Part shown: one piece after another, positions 49,512-64,000 of the stretch
How positions within the stretch are numbered: position 1 is the stretch's first letter
Layout: the number at the start of each line of letters is the position of its first letter
NCBI GenBank assembly: GCA_030426085.1
Contig: JAUHYW010000050.1
Span: forward strand, 1 to 64,000
Direction: 5' to 3'
DNA length: 64,000 bases
Origin: a bacterium
Lineage (GTDB): Bacteria; Myxococcota_A; Bradymonadia; UBA7976; UBA1532
Position numbers and translations under genes: made by a program
Notes under the pieces: model-generated
What the model saw: only the letters and a program-made list of their open reading frames with translations
Told to the model about the DNA's origin: nothing
Database searches by the model: none

Positions 49512-49603
49512 GGCGGCACTTCCGATCGCAGGGTGACCGGTCGAGGGTAGCGCGGGCCGGGCTGCGGGTTGCAATCGCCCGGCGCTTGCCGCACCGTCCG
49601 GCC

Positions 49604-50944
49604 ATGCAGACCGACCCCACGCATCGCCCGCCCCAGATTCGGATCCGCAGTGAGATCGGCGCCTTGAGAGAGGTCGTCGTGCACCGCCCCGGGCCCGAGA
49701 TCGCCCGGATGACCCAGCACGAGCTGGAGCGGCTGCTCTTCGACGATCTGCTCTCGCCCACCGAGACCGGCCGGGAGCACGACGTCATGACCGACGTGCT
49801 GCGCGGCGCCGGGGCCCGGGTGCACGAGGTCTCCCGCCTGCTCGCCCGGGGGTTGAGCCGGGCCCCGCGGGCCTCGCGGGCGGCGCTGCTGCGGCGGATC
49901 TGCGCCTCGGCCGGCGCTCCGGGGCTGGCGCCGCTGCTCGGCGAGTGGGACGCCGAGCGGCTGGCCCTGGGGCTGGTCGCGGGGGTCTTCTGGCACGAGC
50001 TGAAGGGCGCGCCCCAGACGCTCGGCCGCCTGCGGGCCGGGCTCTTCGACCCGACCGACATGGCGCTGCGGCCGGTGCCCAACCTGATGTTCATGCGCGA
50101 CCCGGCGATGGTCATCGACGATCAGGTGGTCATCAACCGCATGGGCCGCCCGGCGCGGGCCCGGGAGGCGGTGCTGGTCGGCTTCGCCCTGCGCTGGGGG
50201 CTGCCCGGGGGCTACGGGCCCCGGCTGACACCGCTGACCGAGGACGATCACTTCGGTAAGCGCAACTGCACCGTCGAGGGGGGCGACCTGCTGGTCATCT
50301 CGCCCGAAGTGGTGCTGGTCGGCTGCTCGGAGCGCACGACGGCCCTGGGCATCGAGCGGCTGGCTCATGAGGTTCTCTTCCCCAACCAGCCGGCGCTGAA
50401 GCGGGTCTACGCGGTGCTGATGCCCGAGCTGCGCTCGATCATGCACCTCGACACGCTGCTGACCCAGGTCGACGCCGAGCTGTTCCTGGGGCACGCGCCG
50501 CTGGTGGCCGGCGGCCCGGGGCACCTGGGGCAGCCGCCGCTGCGGGTGGCCCGGCTCGAGCGCGACGTGGCGCCGACGCTGATCGGGGGTACGGTGCTCG
50601 ACATCCTGCGCGAGGAGCTGGGCATGGGGGTCGAGCTGGTGCCTTGTGGGGGCGACGATCCGGTCCAGCAGGAGCGCGAGCAGTGGACCGACGGGGCCAA
50701 CGCGGTGTGCCTCGGGCCGGGACACATCCTGCTCTACAGCCGCAACGTGGGCACCATCGAGGCCCTGGCCCGGCGGGGCTTCACCGAGGTGCGGCTGAGC
50801 GCGGTGCAGCCGGCCGACGAGCGGGCGGGGCTGATCGCCGAGGCGATGGATCACCCGCGGGTCGTCTTCGGGTTCACCGGCTCGGAGCTGTGCCGGGCCC
50901 GGGGCGGCGGGCGGTGCCTGACGATGCCGCTGCACCGGGCGTAG
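49604..50944 (+). CDS. arcA: arginine deiminase
   Basis: A 446-residue enzyme that hydrolyses L-arginine to citrulline and ammonia. The active-site residues stand in the family order: Asp166 in FMRDP, Glu225 in EGGD, His281 and Asp283 in HLDT, and the nucleophile Cys438 in GRCLTMPL, close to the Pseudomonas ADI numbering (D166, E224, H278, D280, C406). No arcB, arcC or arcD lies in the window, so it is not part of a full arginine deiminase pathway operon here. The ATG at 49604 was preferred over an upstream TTG. Its stop is 3 bases before the start of a Ser/Thr kinase gene. Confidence 0.93.
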   Translation: MQTDPTHRPPQIRIRSEIGALREVVVHRPGPEIARMTQHELERLLFDDLLSPTETGREHDVMTDVLRGAGARVHEVSRLLARGLSRAPRASRAALLRRICASAGAPGLAPLLGEWDAERLALGLVAGVFWHELKGAPQTLGRLRAGLFDPTDMALRPVPNLMFMRDPAMVIDDQVVINRMGRPARAREAVLVGFALRWGLPGGYGPRLTPLTEDDHFGKRNCTVEGGDLLVISPEVVLVGCSERTTALGIERLAHEVLFPNQPALKRVYAVLMPELRSIMHLDTLLTQVDAELFLGHAPLVAGGPGHLGQPPLRVARLERDVAPTLIGGTVLDILREELGMGVELVPCGGDDPVQQEREQWTDGANAVCLGPGHILLYSRNVGTIEALARRGFTEVRLSAVQPADERAGLIAEAMDHPRVVFGFTGSELCRARGGGRCLTMPLHRA

Positions 50945-50947
50945 AGC

Positions 50948-52531
50948 ATGGCGCGGGGGGGCGAGCCGGCCGACGAGCGGCTGGCGGCGGGCACCGTGCT
51001 CGACCTCGGCCGGCGCTACCGGATCGAGCGCTTCCTGGGCGCCGGTGGCTTCGCCGAGGTGTATCAGGCGACCGAGCTGGGCATCGGCCGTCCGGTGGCC
51101 CTCAAGCTGCTCGGGGTCGGCCCCCACACCCGCGGCCTGCACAAGCGCCGGTTCTTCCGCGAGGCGCAGGCCGCCGCCCGCATCCGGCATCCGGACGTCG
51201 TCACCATCCTCGAGCACGGGGTGGCCCCCGACGGCCGGCCGTACATCGCCCAGGACTTCCTCGACGGGGCCGATCTGGCCGAGGTGATCGACGCCGAGGG
51301 CCCGCTGAGCCCGCGGCGGGCGATCCCGCTGTTCGTGCGCGGGCTCGACGCCCTCGCCGCGGCCCACGAGGCGGGCGTCGTGCACCGCGACCTCAAGCCG
51401 GCCAACGTCTTCCTCGACCACGCGGGGACCCACCGCGAGCGGCTGGTGCTGCTCGACTTCGGGGTGGCCTTTCTGCACGAGCAGCTCGACGATCGGCTCA
51501 CGGCGACCGGGGGCTACCTGGGCACGCCGCGCTATATGGCCCCGGAGTATGTCGAGCAGCGGGCGGTGGCACCGGCGATGGACGTCTACCAGATGGCGCT
51601 GGTGCTGGTGGAGGCCCTGAGCGGGCGGCCGGTGGTCGACGCGGCCAACGCCTACCAGAGCATGGTGGCCCACGTGAACGGGCGGCTGTCGGTGCCGCTG
51701 TGGCTCGAAGCCAGCGACCTGGGACCGCTGGTGCGGGCGGCGCTGAACCTCGACCCGGCGAAGCGCCCCACCGCCGACGAGCTGCGCGACGGGCTGGCCG
51801 GGATCGACCTCGAAGCGCTGGATCCCGGGCGCATCACGCCCGGGGTCGGGCACGCAGAGACGATCGACTCGGGCGATCTGGCGGTGGCCGAGACGGCCGA
51901 CAGCGACGAGGCAGGCCCGTCGGGCACGGTGCCCACGATGGACGACGCCTGGGTCGAGCTGATCCCCGAAGGCGAGCGGCCCTCGTCGCCCCCGCCGATC
52001 CCCTACGCGGCGTACTTGCAGGGGCGGCCGGCGACCGAGGCGCTGTCGCTGTCGCTCTTTGCCCCCGAGGCGGGCCGGGGCGCGCCGCCGCCGCCCGAGC
52101 GGACCCTCGTCGCGCCGCCTCCACCGAGGCGCCGGGGCCGGGCCTGGATCGCGGCGGTGCTGCTCGTGCTCGGCGTCGGCGCCTTCGCCGCCCTGGATTG
52201 GGGCGTGGCCGATCGGGCGATCATGCCGGACGCCGGCCGGGACGGGGTGCCATCGGATAGCATTTCGGATGCGACCGGGGATGCCATGCCCGCCGCCGGT
52301 GAGGACGCCACCCCGCGGGTCGACGCCTCCCGGGATGCCATCGTCGGGGAGATCGAGATCATCCGCCGGGCCGATGATCCGCAGGGGCGCCCCCGACCGG
52401 ACACCCGCCGCACGCCGCCCGAACCCCCGCGCCCCCGCCCGGTGGACGCCGGCGCCGCCGGGTCGACCGACGGACCGCCCACCGCCGGCGACCTGCTGCG
52501 CTGGCGGCGAGCGGTGCCCGCCGCGCCGTGA
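50948..52531 (+). CDS. membrane Ser/Thr protein kinase with an extracytoplasmic Asp/Pro-rich tail
   Basis: A 527-residue Hanks-type kinase: glycine loop GAGGFAEV (31-38), Lys53 in VALKLL, catalytic HRDLKPAN (Asp148), DFG (170-172) and APE (198-200). A Pro/Ser/Thr-rich linker follows, then one membrane helix at about 398-418 and a low-complexity Asp/Arg/Pro tail. Translation is coupled to arginine deiminase upstream (3 bases between stop and start), so kinase and arginine catabolism may share control; that link is inferred from gene order only. Confidence 0.9.
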   Translation: MARGGEPADERLAAGTVLDLGRRYRIERFLGAGGFAEVYQATELGIGRPVALKLLGVGPHTRGLHKRRFFREAQAAARIRHPDVVTILEHGVAPDGRPYIAQDFLDGADLAEVIDAEGPLSPRRAIPLFVRGLDALAAAHEAGVVHRDLKPANVFLDHAGTHRERLVLLDFGVAFLHEQLDDRLTATGGYLGTPRYMAPEYVEQRAVAPAMDVYQMALVLVEALSGRPVVDAANAYQSMVAHVNGRLSVPLWLEASDLGPLVRAALNLDPAKRPTADELRDGLAGIDLEALDPGRITPGVGHAETIDSGDLAVAETADSDEAGPSGTVPTMDDAWVELIPEGERPSSPPPIPYAAYLQGRPATEALSLSLFAPEAGRGAPPPPERTLVAPPPPRRRGRAWIAAVLLVLGVGAFAALDWGVADRAIMPDAGRDGVPSDSISDATGDAMPAAGEDATPRVDASRDAIVGEIEIIRRADDPQGRPRPDTRRTPPEPPRPRPVDAGAAGSTDGPPTAGDLLRWRRAVPAAP

Positions 52532-52566
52532 CCCCTCAGTAGAGTCCGAAGGCTGCGCCGACGCGC

Positions 52567-52595
52567 TTGACACCCCGAGCCCCGCCCCGGATCCT
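52567..52595 (+). promoter_or_regulatory. candidate promoter of the ATPase-PIN cassette
   Basis: A perfect -35 TTGACA (52567-52572), 17-bp spacer and a weak -10 GATCCT (52590-52595). The start site would be near 52602, 19 bases before the GTG of the ATPase, with AGGAG in the leader. The weak -10 makes it tentative. Confidence 0.35.
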
Positions 52596-52620
52596 GCGCG
52601 CCATCGATAGGAGTCCTGGC

Positions 52621-53928
52621 GTGTTCATCGAGCGGTTCGAGGTACAAGGCTTCAAGAATTTCGTCGAGCCTGTCGTGATCGACGACCTCGGTCCGGTGAA
52701 CGTCATTCACGGCGACAACAACGTCGGCAAGTCGAACCTCCTCGAAGCGATGCATCTGTTCTTTCGGCTGCTGGCCGAGGATGTCGTCGGCCGCTCTCTA
52801 CCTTTCAGCCGCCCGACGGTGCTCTCCGACCGGGACTTCAGACAGACGGGCTACGCCAGCTCGCGGGTCTTCAACCTCTATCGTCCTCGGCCGATCCGGA
52901 TGAACTGTACCTTCACCGTCTCGGAGACGGAGTTGTCTTCGCGTGGGATCGAGTCGCTCTTCGACTGTACGCGGGTGACGGTCGGCGTCGATCTCGTTCG
53001 TCGTGATGGGGCGGTCGAGTATCGTATCTCCCGCTTCGAGTTCGCCGATGGGACGGACGCGACCATCAACGACGGTTCGAAGCGCTTCGCGCATCGCTTC
53101 GCGTTGTTCCTGACCCGGAACTATCTGGCGCAGGACGAGGCATCTCGGCCGACCTTCGCGCTGGTCGACGAGACCCGCGCGATCCGCGGCCTCACGATCG
53201 AGCGTCCGGGGGGGTTGTTGTCGGCGCCCTTGCAACTTCGGCTGTACGACGCCAAGAACAGCCGCGATTCGCTGCGCTTCGCGCGCTGGAAGCTGTTCAC
53301 CGAACTGCTCGGGGAAGCCCTGAACCTATCGGATGATGGGGACTTCGACGTGCTCTACGACCGTCTGGCGGGTGAGGCGGCCCTGTTCTATCAGCACGAT
53401 GGCATCCGCATGGATCTGGATCTGTTCGGCTCCGGCCATCAGCAGGTCGCCGCGCTCCTCGGGCAGCTTCTGACGACCGATGCGTCGTTTGTTGCGATCG
53501 AAGAGCCCGAGTGCAACCTCCGCTACGCCTTGCAGGTCAAAGTGCGCGACACGCTCGCCCGGATCGCGGACGACGAGGCGGGGCCGAGCCAGCTCTTCGT
53601 CACCAGTCATTCGCCGGCCTTCGAGACGGGTGAGTGGTTCTATGGCATGGCGTGCGATGACGGCACGCCGCGTCTGGAACGACGGCCCAGGGCCGAGGCG
53701 CCGATGTTCACCGGATTGAGCAACGCGCCGCTGCCGCCCACGGCGGACCACGCCCGCCGCAGCTATGTGACGGGTGATGGGCTGGTCGAGGTGCCGCCGT
53801 TCGTGCTCGAGGCGCTCGAACTGCCCGACGGCGGAGGCGTGTTCTTCGCGGTCCGCCGGGAGGATGGCATCGTCGAGATGCTCAGTCACCGCCAGTTCAT
53901 GAAGCTCGGCGGGTTCGACGATGGATGA
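52621..53928 (+). CDS. ABC/SMC-like AAA ATPase (AAA15/AAA21 type), ATPase of a two-gene nuclease cassette
   Basis: A 435-residue ATPase. Walker A is GDNNVGKSN (31-39, Lys37) after the RecF/OLD-like opening IERFEVQGFKNF. FGSGHQQ (269-275) stands at the signature-motif position, Walker B is AIEEPECNL (Glu294-Glu295), and the switch His330 is in VTSHSPAF. This is the layout of ATPases of the PARIS AriA, PtuA and OLD type in phage defence. It has no nuclease domain of its own. GTG start with GGAG. Third-position GC is visibly lower than in neighbours (for example codons TAT, CGT, TCT), which suggests horizontal transfer. It overlaps the next gene by 8 bases. Confidence 0.83.
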   Translation: MFIERFEVQGFKNFVEPVVIDDLGPVNVIHGDNNVGKSNLLEAMHLFFRLLAEDVVGRSLPFSRPTVLSDRDFRQTGYASSRVFNLYRPRPIRMNCTFTVSETELSSRGIESLFDCTRVTVGVDLVRRDGAVEYRISRFEFADGTDATINDGSKRFAHRFALFLTRNYLAQDEASRPTFALVDETRAIRGLTIERPGGLLSAPLQLRLYDAKNSRDSLRFARWKLFTELLGEALNLSDDGDFDVLYDRLAGEAALFYQHDGIRMDLDLFGSGHQQVAALLGQLLTTDASFVAIEEPECNLRYALQVKVRDTLARIADDEAGPSQLFVTSHSPAFETGEWFYGMACDDGTPRLERRPRAEAPMFTGLSNAPLPPTADHARRSYVTGDGLVEVPPFVLEALELPDGGGVFFAVRREDGIVEMLSHRQFMKLGGFDDG

Positions 53929-54538
53929 CGCCGGGCTGCAGGCGCGACTCATGGCGACCGGTGCCGTGACGACGGTCTCGATCGACACCAACATCTCCCG
54001 CTCCAGTCGGATCATGGTCGAGTTGCTGGAACTCGCGGGTGCGCTCAAGGGCATGGAGTTCGGTGTCCGGCTCGTCGTGTCTGCGCCGGCGTTGGCCGAG
54101 ATCATCATGGATCTCCGCCAACGCTTCGGGGACCGCTACGCGCCAGAGATGATCGCGGACTTCATCGAGGGCAACGACTACCTCGAGATCGAAGCCTTCA
54201 CCCGGGCCGATGCCGAGCATCAGGCCGAGCGCCTGACGCGGCTGTTCGCCGACGACGCGTCGTGGCAATCGGCCAAGGTCGACGCGGCCCTGGCCGACCT
54301 GAAGCTCGCCCACCGGGATGATATCGATCGATCCAAGGCTCGGTGTTCGGCGACCATCGACTGGCTGATCGGCAGTCAGGCCGAGCGCGGTGGTTGGTTG
54401 TTGGCGACCCACGACAAGGGGCCGGAGTTCGCGGACCTCGACCGGGTCTCGCTCGAGCGCCTTCGGCGTGCTTTGCATACCTTGAGTGCGTCTCGTCGGG
54501 GTGACGTGGCGTCGGAGGAGCCCCCGTCGGGGCTGTAG
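53921..54538 (+). CDS. PIN-domain nuclease, partner of the ATPase
   Basis: A 205-residue protein. PIN active-site acids are in order: Asp22 in SIDTNIS, Glu60 in APALAEII, Asp147 in ATIDWLIGSQA and Asp165 in LATHDKGPEF. The DWLIGSQA and ATHDKGPEF motifs match the VapC-type C-terminal half (DxLIxxxA...TxDxxF). PIN enzymes cleave RNA. Its ATG lies inside the end of the ATPase gene, so the two are translated together; the ATPase probably controls the nuclease. No antitoxin gene of VapB type precedes it, unlike a free toxin. Codon use is the same lower-GC type as the ATPase. Confidence 0.82.
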   Translation: MDDAGLQARLMATGAVTTVSIDTNISRSSRIMVELLELAGALKGMEFGVRLVVSAPALAEIIMDLRQRFGDRYAPEMIADFIEGNDYLEIEAFTRADAEHQAERLTRLFADDASWQSAKVDAALADLKLAHRDDIDRSKARCSATIDWLIGSQAERGGWLLATHDKGPEFADLDRVSLERLRRALHTLSASRRGDVASEEPPSGL

Positions 54539-54609
54539 GGCCGAGGTCCGACTTTCCCAATCTGCGGTCGTCGGCGATGATGGCACCTCGCTTGGGAGAG
54601 TCGCCCGCG

Positions 54610-61853: not shown

Positions 61854-62031
61854 TCCCGCTCGCCCACCGACCCGCTTCCCCTCAGGTGCGTCCGGCCGGC
61901 TCTCCGTCCACCCCCCAACGGCCGGCCGGGCGCACCGTCTCTCTCCGACCTTCCGCGCCCCGCGCGCCGACCCCCTGCCTCACCACCGACGCATGCTGTA
62001 GGATGCGCCATCGCCCCTGTCGGGAGTGCGC

Positions 62032-64000
62032 GTGGCGACGCCGTCCATCAGCCTGGGTGACTTCGATCTCGACCGGGTCATCGGCCGGGGCGGCATGGCC
62101 GAGGTGTGGGCCGGGCGCCACCGCACGCTCGATGAGCCGGCGGCCCTCAAGGTCATGCGGGGCACGCTCGCCGGGGACGCGGGCTTCGTCGCCGGCTTCC
62201 ACCGCGAGGTGCGGGCGGTGGCCGGGCTCGACCACCCGGGGGTCGTCGGCGTCTTCGACACCGGGGTCGTCGACGGCGGGGCGGCCGCCGCGTCGAAGGG
62301 CGCGCTCACCGCCGGCAGCCCGTGGCTCGCCATGGAATACGCCGCCAGCGGCGACCTCTCGCAGTGGCCCCGCCCGCTGCCCTGGGGCCGGCTGCACGGC
62401 CTGCTGCTCGAGGTGCTCGACGCGCTGGCCCACGCCCACGCCCGGGGGGTCATCCACCGCGACCTCAAGCCGGGCAACATCCTCGTGCGCGACATCGACG
62501 GCGGCCGGCGGGTCATGCTGACCGACTTCGGCATCGCCCACGTCGTCGAGCCCCGGCTCGACAGCGACGCGGTCGGCGCGAGCACCTCGGGCACCCCCCA
62601 CTACATGGCGCCGGAGCAGATCCGCGGACGCTGGCGGGATTACGGCCCGTGGACCGACCTCTACGCGCTGGGCTGCGTGGCCTTCGAACTGGCCTGCGGG
62701 CGCCCCCCGTACGACGGCCGCAGCCCGGTCGCCATCGCCATGAAGCAGGTCTCGGCCCCGGTGCCCCGGCTGGGCGACACCCTCGGCACGCCCGAGATCT
62801 TCGAAGACTGGGTCCGCCGGCTGCTGGCCAAGAACCCCCGCGACCGCTTCGAGACGGCGGCCGACGCCGCGTGGCACCTCGCCCGGATGCCCGCGCCGCG
62901 CAGCGTGGCCCGCATCCGCCCCAGCGCCGACGCCGAGCGGGCGACCGACACCCTGCCCCGGCTGCCGGCCCGGGGCATGACGACCCTCGCGGTGCTGGTC
63001 GACACCGCCCTGCTCGACGCGGTGCTGCCCGAGCGCCGGGACGACCCGACGTCCGACCCCGCCGCCCCGGTGAGCGAGCGCGGCCCCACCGCCGACGCGT
63101 CGCCCGCCGGCCCGGCCCCCGACCGCCCGACCCGTGACCGCCCGGCCTCCCTGGGGGTGACCGCGCCCCTGCCGCCCATCGCGCCGTCCCCCGAGCATCA
63201 GGTGCCGCCGGTGCCCGCCTCGTGGCGCCTGCCCGACGGCGAGCAGGCCCGGCGGGCGCTGGGCACCGGCCTGTTCGCGGTGCGCGAGACCCCGTTCGTC
63301 GGGCGCCTCGCCGAGCGGGACGCGCTGTGGAGCGCCCTGCGCGACGTGCGCCGCAGCAAGGCGACCCGCATGGTGCTGCTCGAGGGCGGCGAGGGCTGCG
63401 GCAAGTCCCGGCTGATGGAGTGGCTCGCCCACCGGGCCGAGGAGGTCGGGGCCGGCATCGCGCTGCGGGTGGGGCACGGCCCGGTGCCGTCGGCGCTCGA
63501 CGGGGTCATCGCCGCCATGCGGAGCTGGTTCCGGGGCGACGAGCTGGAGCGCGATCCGCTGCGGATCCGCATCGAGGAGCGCCTCGAGCGGCTGCTGCCG
63601 TTCATGCCCGAGGGCGGGTTGAGCGAGGCGGCCGAAGGGCTCGCCGCGCTGCTCGACCCCGACCCCCGCGCGCCGGGCCGCCCCCGCAACCCCGCCGAGC
63701 AGCGGGCGGCCATCGCCTACTGGCTGCGGCAGGCGACCGACCGCCGGCCGCTGCTGCTGTGCATCGACGACGCCCACTTCGGCCACGACTCGCTGGCCCT
63801 GGCCGAGCACCTGCTCGACGACGCCCGGCAGACCCCGATCCTGCTCGTGGCGACCGTCGCCCCCCAGCACCTCACCGCGCGGCGCATGGAGGCCGAGAGC
63901 CGGGATCGCCTCGCCGCGCGGGCCACCGTCACGACCCTGTCGCTCGGCCCGCTGCCCCGGGCCGAGCACGCCGCGCTGGTGCGTACGCTCCTCCAGCTCG
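62032..64000 (+). CDS. Ser/Thr kinase - AAA ATPase signalling protein (3' end outside window)
   Basis: The frame runs open from GTG at 62032 to the window edge (656 codons). GGGAG lies 5 bases upstream; GTG at 62026 is an in-frame alternative. Kinase: glycine loop GRGGMAEV (18-25), Lys40, HRDLKPGN (Asp144), DFG (165-167), APEQ. After a Pro/Asp linker an AAA_16/STAND ATPase begins: FVGRLAERDAL, Walker A EGGEGCGKS (Lys458) and Walker B LLLCIDDAHF (Asp579). TPR repeats probably follow beyond the edge. The same architecture is at 4581-8363; the two are likely paralogues. Confidence 0.9.
   Translation, partial: MATPSISLGDFDLDRVIGRGGMAEVWAGRHRTLDEPAALKVMRGTLAGDAGFVAGFHREVRAVAGLDHPGVVGVFDTGVVDGGAAAASKGALTAGSPWLAMEYAASGDLSQWPRPLPWGRLHGLLLEVLDALAHAHARGVIHRDLKPGNILVRDIDGGRRVMLTDFGIAHVVEPRLDSDAVGASTSGTPHYMAPEQIRGRWRDYGPWTDLYALGCVAFELACGRPPYDGRSPVAIAMKQVSAPVPRLGDTLGTPEIFEDWVRRLLAKNPRDRFETAADAAWHLARMPAPRSVARIRPSADAERATDTLPRLPARGMTTLAVLVDTALLDAVLPERRDDPTSDPAAPVSERGPTADASPAGPAPDRPTRDRPASLGVTAPLPPIAPSPEHQVPPVPASWRLPDGEQARRALGTGLFAVRETPFVGRLAERDALWSALRDVRRSKATRMVLLEGGEGCGKSRLMEWLAHRAEEVGAGIALRVGHGPVPSALDGVIAAMRSWFRGDELERDPLRIRIEERLERLLPFMPEGGLSEAAEGLAALLDPDPRAPGRPRNPAEQRAAIAYWLRQATDRRPLLLCIDDAHFGHDSLALAEHLLDDARQTPILLVATVAPQHLTARRMEAESRDRLAARATVTTLSLGPLPRAEHAALVRTLLQL

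Follow-up and report, generated by a model that had tools for sequence, protein, structure and literature searches.

A two-gene cassette in a Bradymonadia contig that pairs a PIN-domain protein with an OLD/AriA/PtuA-kind ABC ATPase carrying a probable AbrB/MazE/VapB-type tail

The window, the 64,000-nucleotide stretch of contig JAUHYW010000050.1 that was analyzed, contains two overlapping genes that encode an ABC ATPase and a PIN-domain protein, and computation recovers the same pair in relatives from other genomes. A VapB/MazE-like antitoxin is probably present as a domain fused to the end of the ATPase, as judged from sequence profiles and a predicted model. The original prediction had stated that no VapB-like antitoxin is encoded. 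This is probably wrong, since the ATPase C-terminus (residues ~378-435) appears to be an AbrB/MazE-type domain, and with a fused antitoxin-like domain the mechanism can be stated more concretely than with a sensor and an RNase alone. The reading to which we give somewhat better than even chances is a compact, horizontally moved two-gene defense or toxin-antitoxin module, in which a PIN RNase restrained by the tail would be released on phage sensing. It resembles a hybrid of a toxin-antitoxin pair and a phage-sensing defense system. The features are as follows.

52532..54573 (approximate limits), no strand: inserted cassette, missing from the sister species G209, where the host genes on either side of it are adjacent
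52609..52613, + strand: Shine-Dalgarno-like AGGAG, a putative element read from the sequence, preceding the GTG start
52621..53928, + strand: 435-aa OLD/AriA/PtuA-kind ABC ATPase, starting with GTG
52711..52737, + strand: Walker A GDNNVGKSN, residues 31-39
53500..53505, + strand: Walker B glutamates E294-E295
53608..53610, + strand: switch histidine H330
53752..53925, + strand: C-terminal AbrB/MazE/VapB-type domain and short acidic tail, residues ~378-435, proposed tethered antitoxin (Pfam, PDB profile, model, hhalign)
53921..53928, + strand: 8-base overlap of the two open reading frames
53921..54538, + strand: PIN-domain protein, putative RNase, 205 aa, proposed toxin/effector (AlphaFold2 model, Foldseek, profiles, conserved acidic residues)

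The ATPase likely starts at the GTG at 52621 rather than at the possible TTG at 52567, because an AGGAG stands upstream of the GTG and the residue numbering of the original prediction fits this start. The protein matches Pfam AAA_21 (1e-18) and PADLOC AriA (1.8e-21). A profile of 18 relatives searched against the PDB gives AriA of PARIS as the best solved sequence match (3e-11), and the best fold match in Foldseek is PtuA of Septu (1.4e-14) with SMC heads close behind; similarity extends to SMC/RecF-type ATPase heads. The predicted AriA/PtuA/OLD-like ATPase is thus borne out. Its Walker A motif, EE pair and His330 are all found, and across the 18 relatives they vary little (Walker A) or not at all (EE pair, His330). 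Because they are kept in relatives, the protein is probably an active ATPase. At a threshold of 1e-10 no relative of the ATPase turned up among plasmids or phages, and viral contigs gave weak partial matches only.

The AbrB-type region follows the ABC core and makes up the final ~57 residues of the protein, of which ~10-20 remain beyond the domain. The consensus of this tail in relatives is YVxxDGLVxLPxxVRxxLGLExGGGVxF...xLT. Pfam MazE_antitoxin (PF04014) is matched by 9/20 family tails with a best value of 8.3e-6; the tail of the window ATPase has no significant Pfam match by itself, and its assignment rests on the relatives. Against the profile of the family, of which it is itself a member, the window tail reaches 72.6 bits. 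Searched against the PDB, the tail profile retrieves double-psi/cradle-loop barrels, AbrB and SpoVT, and hhalign of the tail with SpoVT/AbrB/MazE gives 65% (E 6e-5) with the three reference sequences entered by hand. The predicted model of the tail has the order strand-strand-helix-strand-strand. The AbrB domain of VapB serves for dimerization and DNA binding. Shigella VapB, which is used with VapC, carries an AbrB-type domain, and such domains bind DNA in AbrB, SpoVT and VapB (PMC3384007).

The second gene was predicted to encode a VapC-type PIN nuclease with Asp22, Glu60, Asp147 and Asp165, and a structure outside the PIN fold was named as its refutation. In Foldseek, VapC proteins head the matches of the AlphaFold2 model (pLDDT 83.7; best E 3.4e-4, prob 1.00), with modest TM-scores of 0.4 on the query and 0.6 on the target; PIN nucleases of rRNA/tRNA processing are among the weaker matches. 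All four residues are invariant in 12 relatives, and the divergent PIN protein of the myxobacterial locus L024 does not retain the last aspartate. VapC proteins are also the best matches of the PIN profile in the PDB (E 0.018-0.11), and Pfam PIN is matched weakly by 4/8 relatives. The PIN assignment is safe as a fold, as modeled, so this refutation fails, and the protein would be an RNase. Single-sequence searches with the PIN protein gave no match in genome_contigs and no convincing one in PDB, PADLOC, NCBIfam, plasmids or phages; alignments and whole-genome searches did better. Pfam matches of the window protein to Atypical_Card, SQHop_cyclase_C and GbpC are sub-threshold and were dismissed. 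Weak PIN matches at further loci (L009-L017, E 1e-3 to 1e-2) have no ATPase relative alongside, were not recovered by the profile and are regarded as chance.

The pair sits in a cassette with an empty site in a sister genome. In G209, a sister species of the same genus, the kinase gene directly adjoins the TPR-like gene; similarity between the two genomes stops at ~52531-52565 and returns at 54574. The lower GC that had been claimed for the pair is confirmed by a local GC scan (64-67% against ~74% around), and the GC3 values of the two genes are 0.83 and 0.84 against a window median of 0.935. Because of the empty site and the lower GC, the cassette was likely gained horizontally. Flanking repeats or transposon ends are not conspicuous at the insertion point. 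The 8-base overlap is as predicted, with the ATPase frame running to 53928 and the PIN frame from 53921 to 54538. The TTGACA element proposed as a promoter exists as a hexamer at 52568-52573; no -10 partner was found and the promoter scan of the short region upstream of the ATPase gene recognized nothing, so its role as a promoter is unsupported. No small separate antitoxin frame was recognized within the cassette.

Upstream of the cassette, translations indicate an arginine-deiminase-like gene (49586-50944) and, after it, one for a Ser/Thr protein kinase (50948-52531); G209 seems to have retained the two. A scan of ten neighbor genes in the window found no defense gene except for one kinase match, and the scanned neighbors are ordinary host genes. 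The PADLOC match to PD-T4-6 at 62026-63999 appears to reflect an ordinary Ser/Thr kinase and was set aside.

Relatives of the ATPase were gathered from 379 genomes of the phylum and from genome_contigs. The ATPase-PIN pair was found in Myxococcota, in Gammaproteobacteria of the Beggiatoa/Thiomargarita/Thioploca type and in Chloroflexota. The 379 genomes contain 13 PIN matches in 12 genomes; all 13 lie directly after such an ATPase and no orphan PIN was seen. Every tail-bearing relative with readable downstream DNA has PIN sequence directly 3' (a fragment only at L051; the downstream region of L057 is cut by the contig end), and eight relatives without the tail domain have no PIN. On a 34-row tree, the tail domain and the PIN gene are gained or lost together three times without exception, as forced by well-supported branches; the relatives from which the profiles were built match them necessarily and related copies are not fully independent, so the fair count is three events. 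A Fisher's test on the co-occurrence uses hand-tallied counts and ignores kinship, so the tree is the better evidence. One locus, L066, appears to have decayed, with loss of both the tail domain and the PIN gene. The ATPase is kept beside a broken PIN gene at L050, L051, L058 and L059, some of which may be assembly errors in the sulfur-bacteria drafts, and the reverse was never seen, as is expected if the ATPase neutralizes the PIN protein. Giant sulfur bacteria (Beggiatoa/Thiomargarita relatives) have many broken or decaying copies, mostly with the PIN gene affected first (L050, L051, L054, L058, L059, L066, L067). Two identical copies in genome G033 have the same flanks and represent an assembly duplicate.

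The original prediction would have been refuted by homologues that are always host-core genes with no tie to defense islands. The pair is conserved, its distribution is patchy, and it sometimes stands beside CRISPR-cas or restriction genes, so this refutation fails as well; most neighbors are ordinary host genes. Type I-E cas genes adjoin the pair at L025, a Cmr6-type gene adjoins it in a genome of the same family (L020), an Eco57I-type methylase lies nearby at L052, a methylase and an Mrr-like protein adjoin it at L059, and a second AriA-like ATPase is nearby at L067. Defense neighbors occur at ~5/18 loci, a count that has no background rate for comparison, and the link of the pair to defense genes is suggestive. 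BREX genes were not recognized near the loci of the pair. The Cmr6-type (type III CRISPR) region at L020 forms the C-terminus of a 662-aa protein encoded at L020:5901-7886. Short repeats near a contig break in a Sorangium MAG (L062:9373-9611), close to type I-E cas genes, are perhaps a CRISPR array. Only in two divergent myxobacterial loci is the PIN gene succeeded by a gene for a ParA/MinD-like ATPase (L021:9011-10021 and L024:8892-9953), which might be the third component of a subtype. It is absent in the window and was rejected as part of the window system.

The module may work as follows. The PIN protein would be a VapC-like RNase that stops translation, with tRNA or another structured RNA as its likely target. 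In the uninfected cell, the ATPase assembly would keep the PIN protein inactive through the fused AbrB/MazE/VapB-type domain, and the ATPase, like VapB, may in addition be bound to its own operator. On infection the ATPase would sense a phage signal and, through binding or hydrolysis of ATP, the assembly would change and free the RNase to arrest or kill the cell. Computation shows the two folds, the pairing, the domain fusion, the joint gain and loss of domain and toxin gene, and the empty site; the RNase activity, the neutralization through the fused domain, the trigger and the anti-phage outcome are inferred. The gene order favors a tethered antitoxin, with the antitoxin-like gene first, the toxin gene second and the two overlapping. 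AriA is the PARIS sensor and holds and releases AriB (PMC12409363), and AAA ATPases of the NetFlax network act as antitoxins that neutralize nuclease toxins (PMC10440598). If the fused domain is the neutralizer, it would explain in a simple way what keeps an RNase silent under the control of an ATPase sensor. A bolder form of this reading, held only tentatively and with the chances rather against it, is that the pair represents a distinct anti-phage class in at least three phyla, in which an ABC ATPase has a built-in VapB/MazE-type tail and phage sensing directly unlocks a VapC-like RNase. If true, a toxin-antitoxin pair would have been turned into a ligand-gated immune switch.

The pair could also be a plain toxin-antitoxin or stabilization module, in which the ATPase with its VapB-like tail neutralizes the PIN protein without sensing phage and the locus persists by addiction. 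The gene order and overlap, the fused VapB/MazE-type domain, the breakage of the toxin before the antitoxin and the mostly ordinary host neighbors all agree with this. However, an ABC ATPase of 370 residues and of the AriA/PtuA kind is a costly antitoxin, CRISPR-cas or restriction genes adjoin some of the loci, and relatives of the ATPase work in phage sensing (PMC12409363, PMC10440598). Simple addiction is rather unlikely.

The tail itself can be read in another way, since so little of the protein follows the domain that its role may be confined to assembly or to autoregulation. In that case the pair would be a sensor and effector like PARIS or Septu, with the ATPase core holding the PIN protein as AriA holds AriB. 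AbrB domains do bind DNA in AbrB, SpoVT and VapB (PMC3384007), and the available part of PMC12409363 describes AriA as holding AriB and describes no AbrB-like domain for AriA. The strict co-occurrence of the domain with the PIN gene, and its lack in PIN-less relatives, speak against a purely regulatory role, as does a short upstream region with no recognized promoter; this explanation is considered improbable. A host housekeeping pair for RNA or DNA processing, unrelated to conflict, would fit the similarity of the ATPase to SMC/RecF-type heads and the rRNA/tRNA-processing nucleases among the weaker fold matches of the PIN protein. It is very hard to reconcile with a presence in 12/379 genomes, an empty site in the same genus, foreign composition and broken copies, and it is given little credence. 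The module with a tail-restrained RNase remains the preferred reading.

Among known systems, PARIS also consists of an OLD-type ABC ATPase and a separate nuclease effector, and the ATPase of the pair is of AriA type. Anti-restriction proteins, Ocr among them, trigger PARIS. Its effector AriB is a Toprim protein, whereas the proposed effector of the pair has a PIN fold and is not of Toprim type, and the extra C-terminal AbrB/MazE-type domain is unmentioned in the parts of the AriA accounts available. Septu is likewise an ATPase and nuclease pair, and the ATPase here has a PtuA-type fold (PtuA gives the top Foldseek matches), but PtuB is an HNH nuclease and no HNH nuclease is found in the pair. 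We know of no AbrB-type domain in Septu. The likeness to VapBC lies in the PIN toxin with its conserved acidic residues, which is weak by sequence alone, and in the AbrB-type domain (PF04014), which Shigella VapB also has (PMC3384007). In contrast to VapBC, the antitoxin-like domain forms the end of an ATPase of 435 residues, no small separate antitoxin gene is recognized, and the PIN protein has 205 aa against ~132 aa. The NetFlax node D29, with AarT, Toprim, RloB, HNH and HEPN partners, has an ATPase as the antitoxin of a nuclease toxin; in the available part of PMC10440598, PIN is not named among the partners and no fused AbrB domain is described.

A precedent is found in PMC12839542 (2026), which reports that OLD-ABC ATPases near BREX have PIN endoRNases among their partners and proposes such pairs as a suicidal backup effector. 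The same two kinds of protein stand side by side in the window; in that paper, the pairs are mentioned in passing and in BREX contexts. The original prediction of a candidate undescribed defense system is partly supported: both protein assignments hold, and "undescribed" is too strong. AbrB, MazE and SpoVT are absent from the main text of PMC12839542, and no description of a fused tail domain on such an ATPase was found in the literature searched. The OLD-ABC/PIN pairing is already known and the fused AbrB-type tail would be the new part. The module ties VapBC-type toxin-antitoxin pairs to the OLD-ABC defense systems PARIS and Septu, which are usually treated apart, and an AbrB-type tail on an AriA/PtuA-like ATPase is a signature for finding more systems that PADLOC and NCBIfam leave unnamed.
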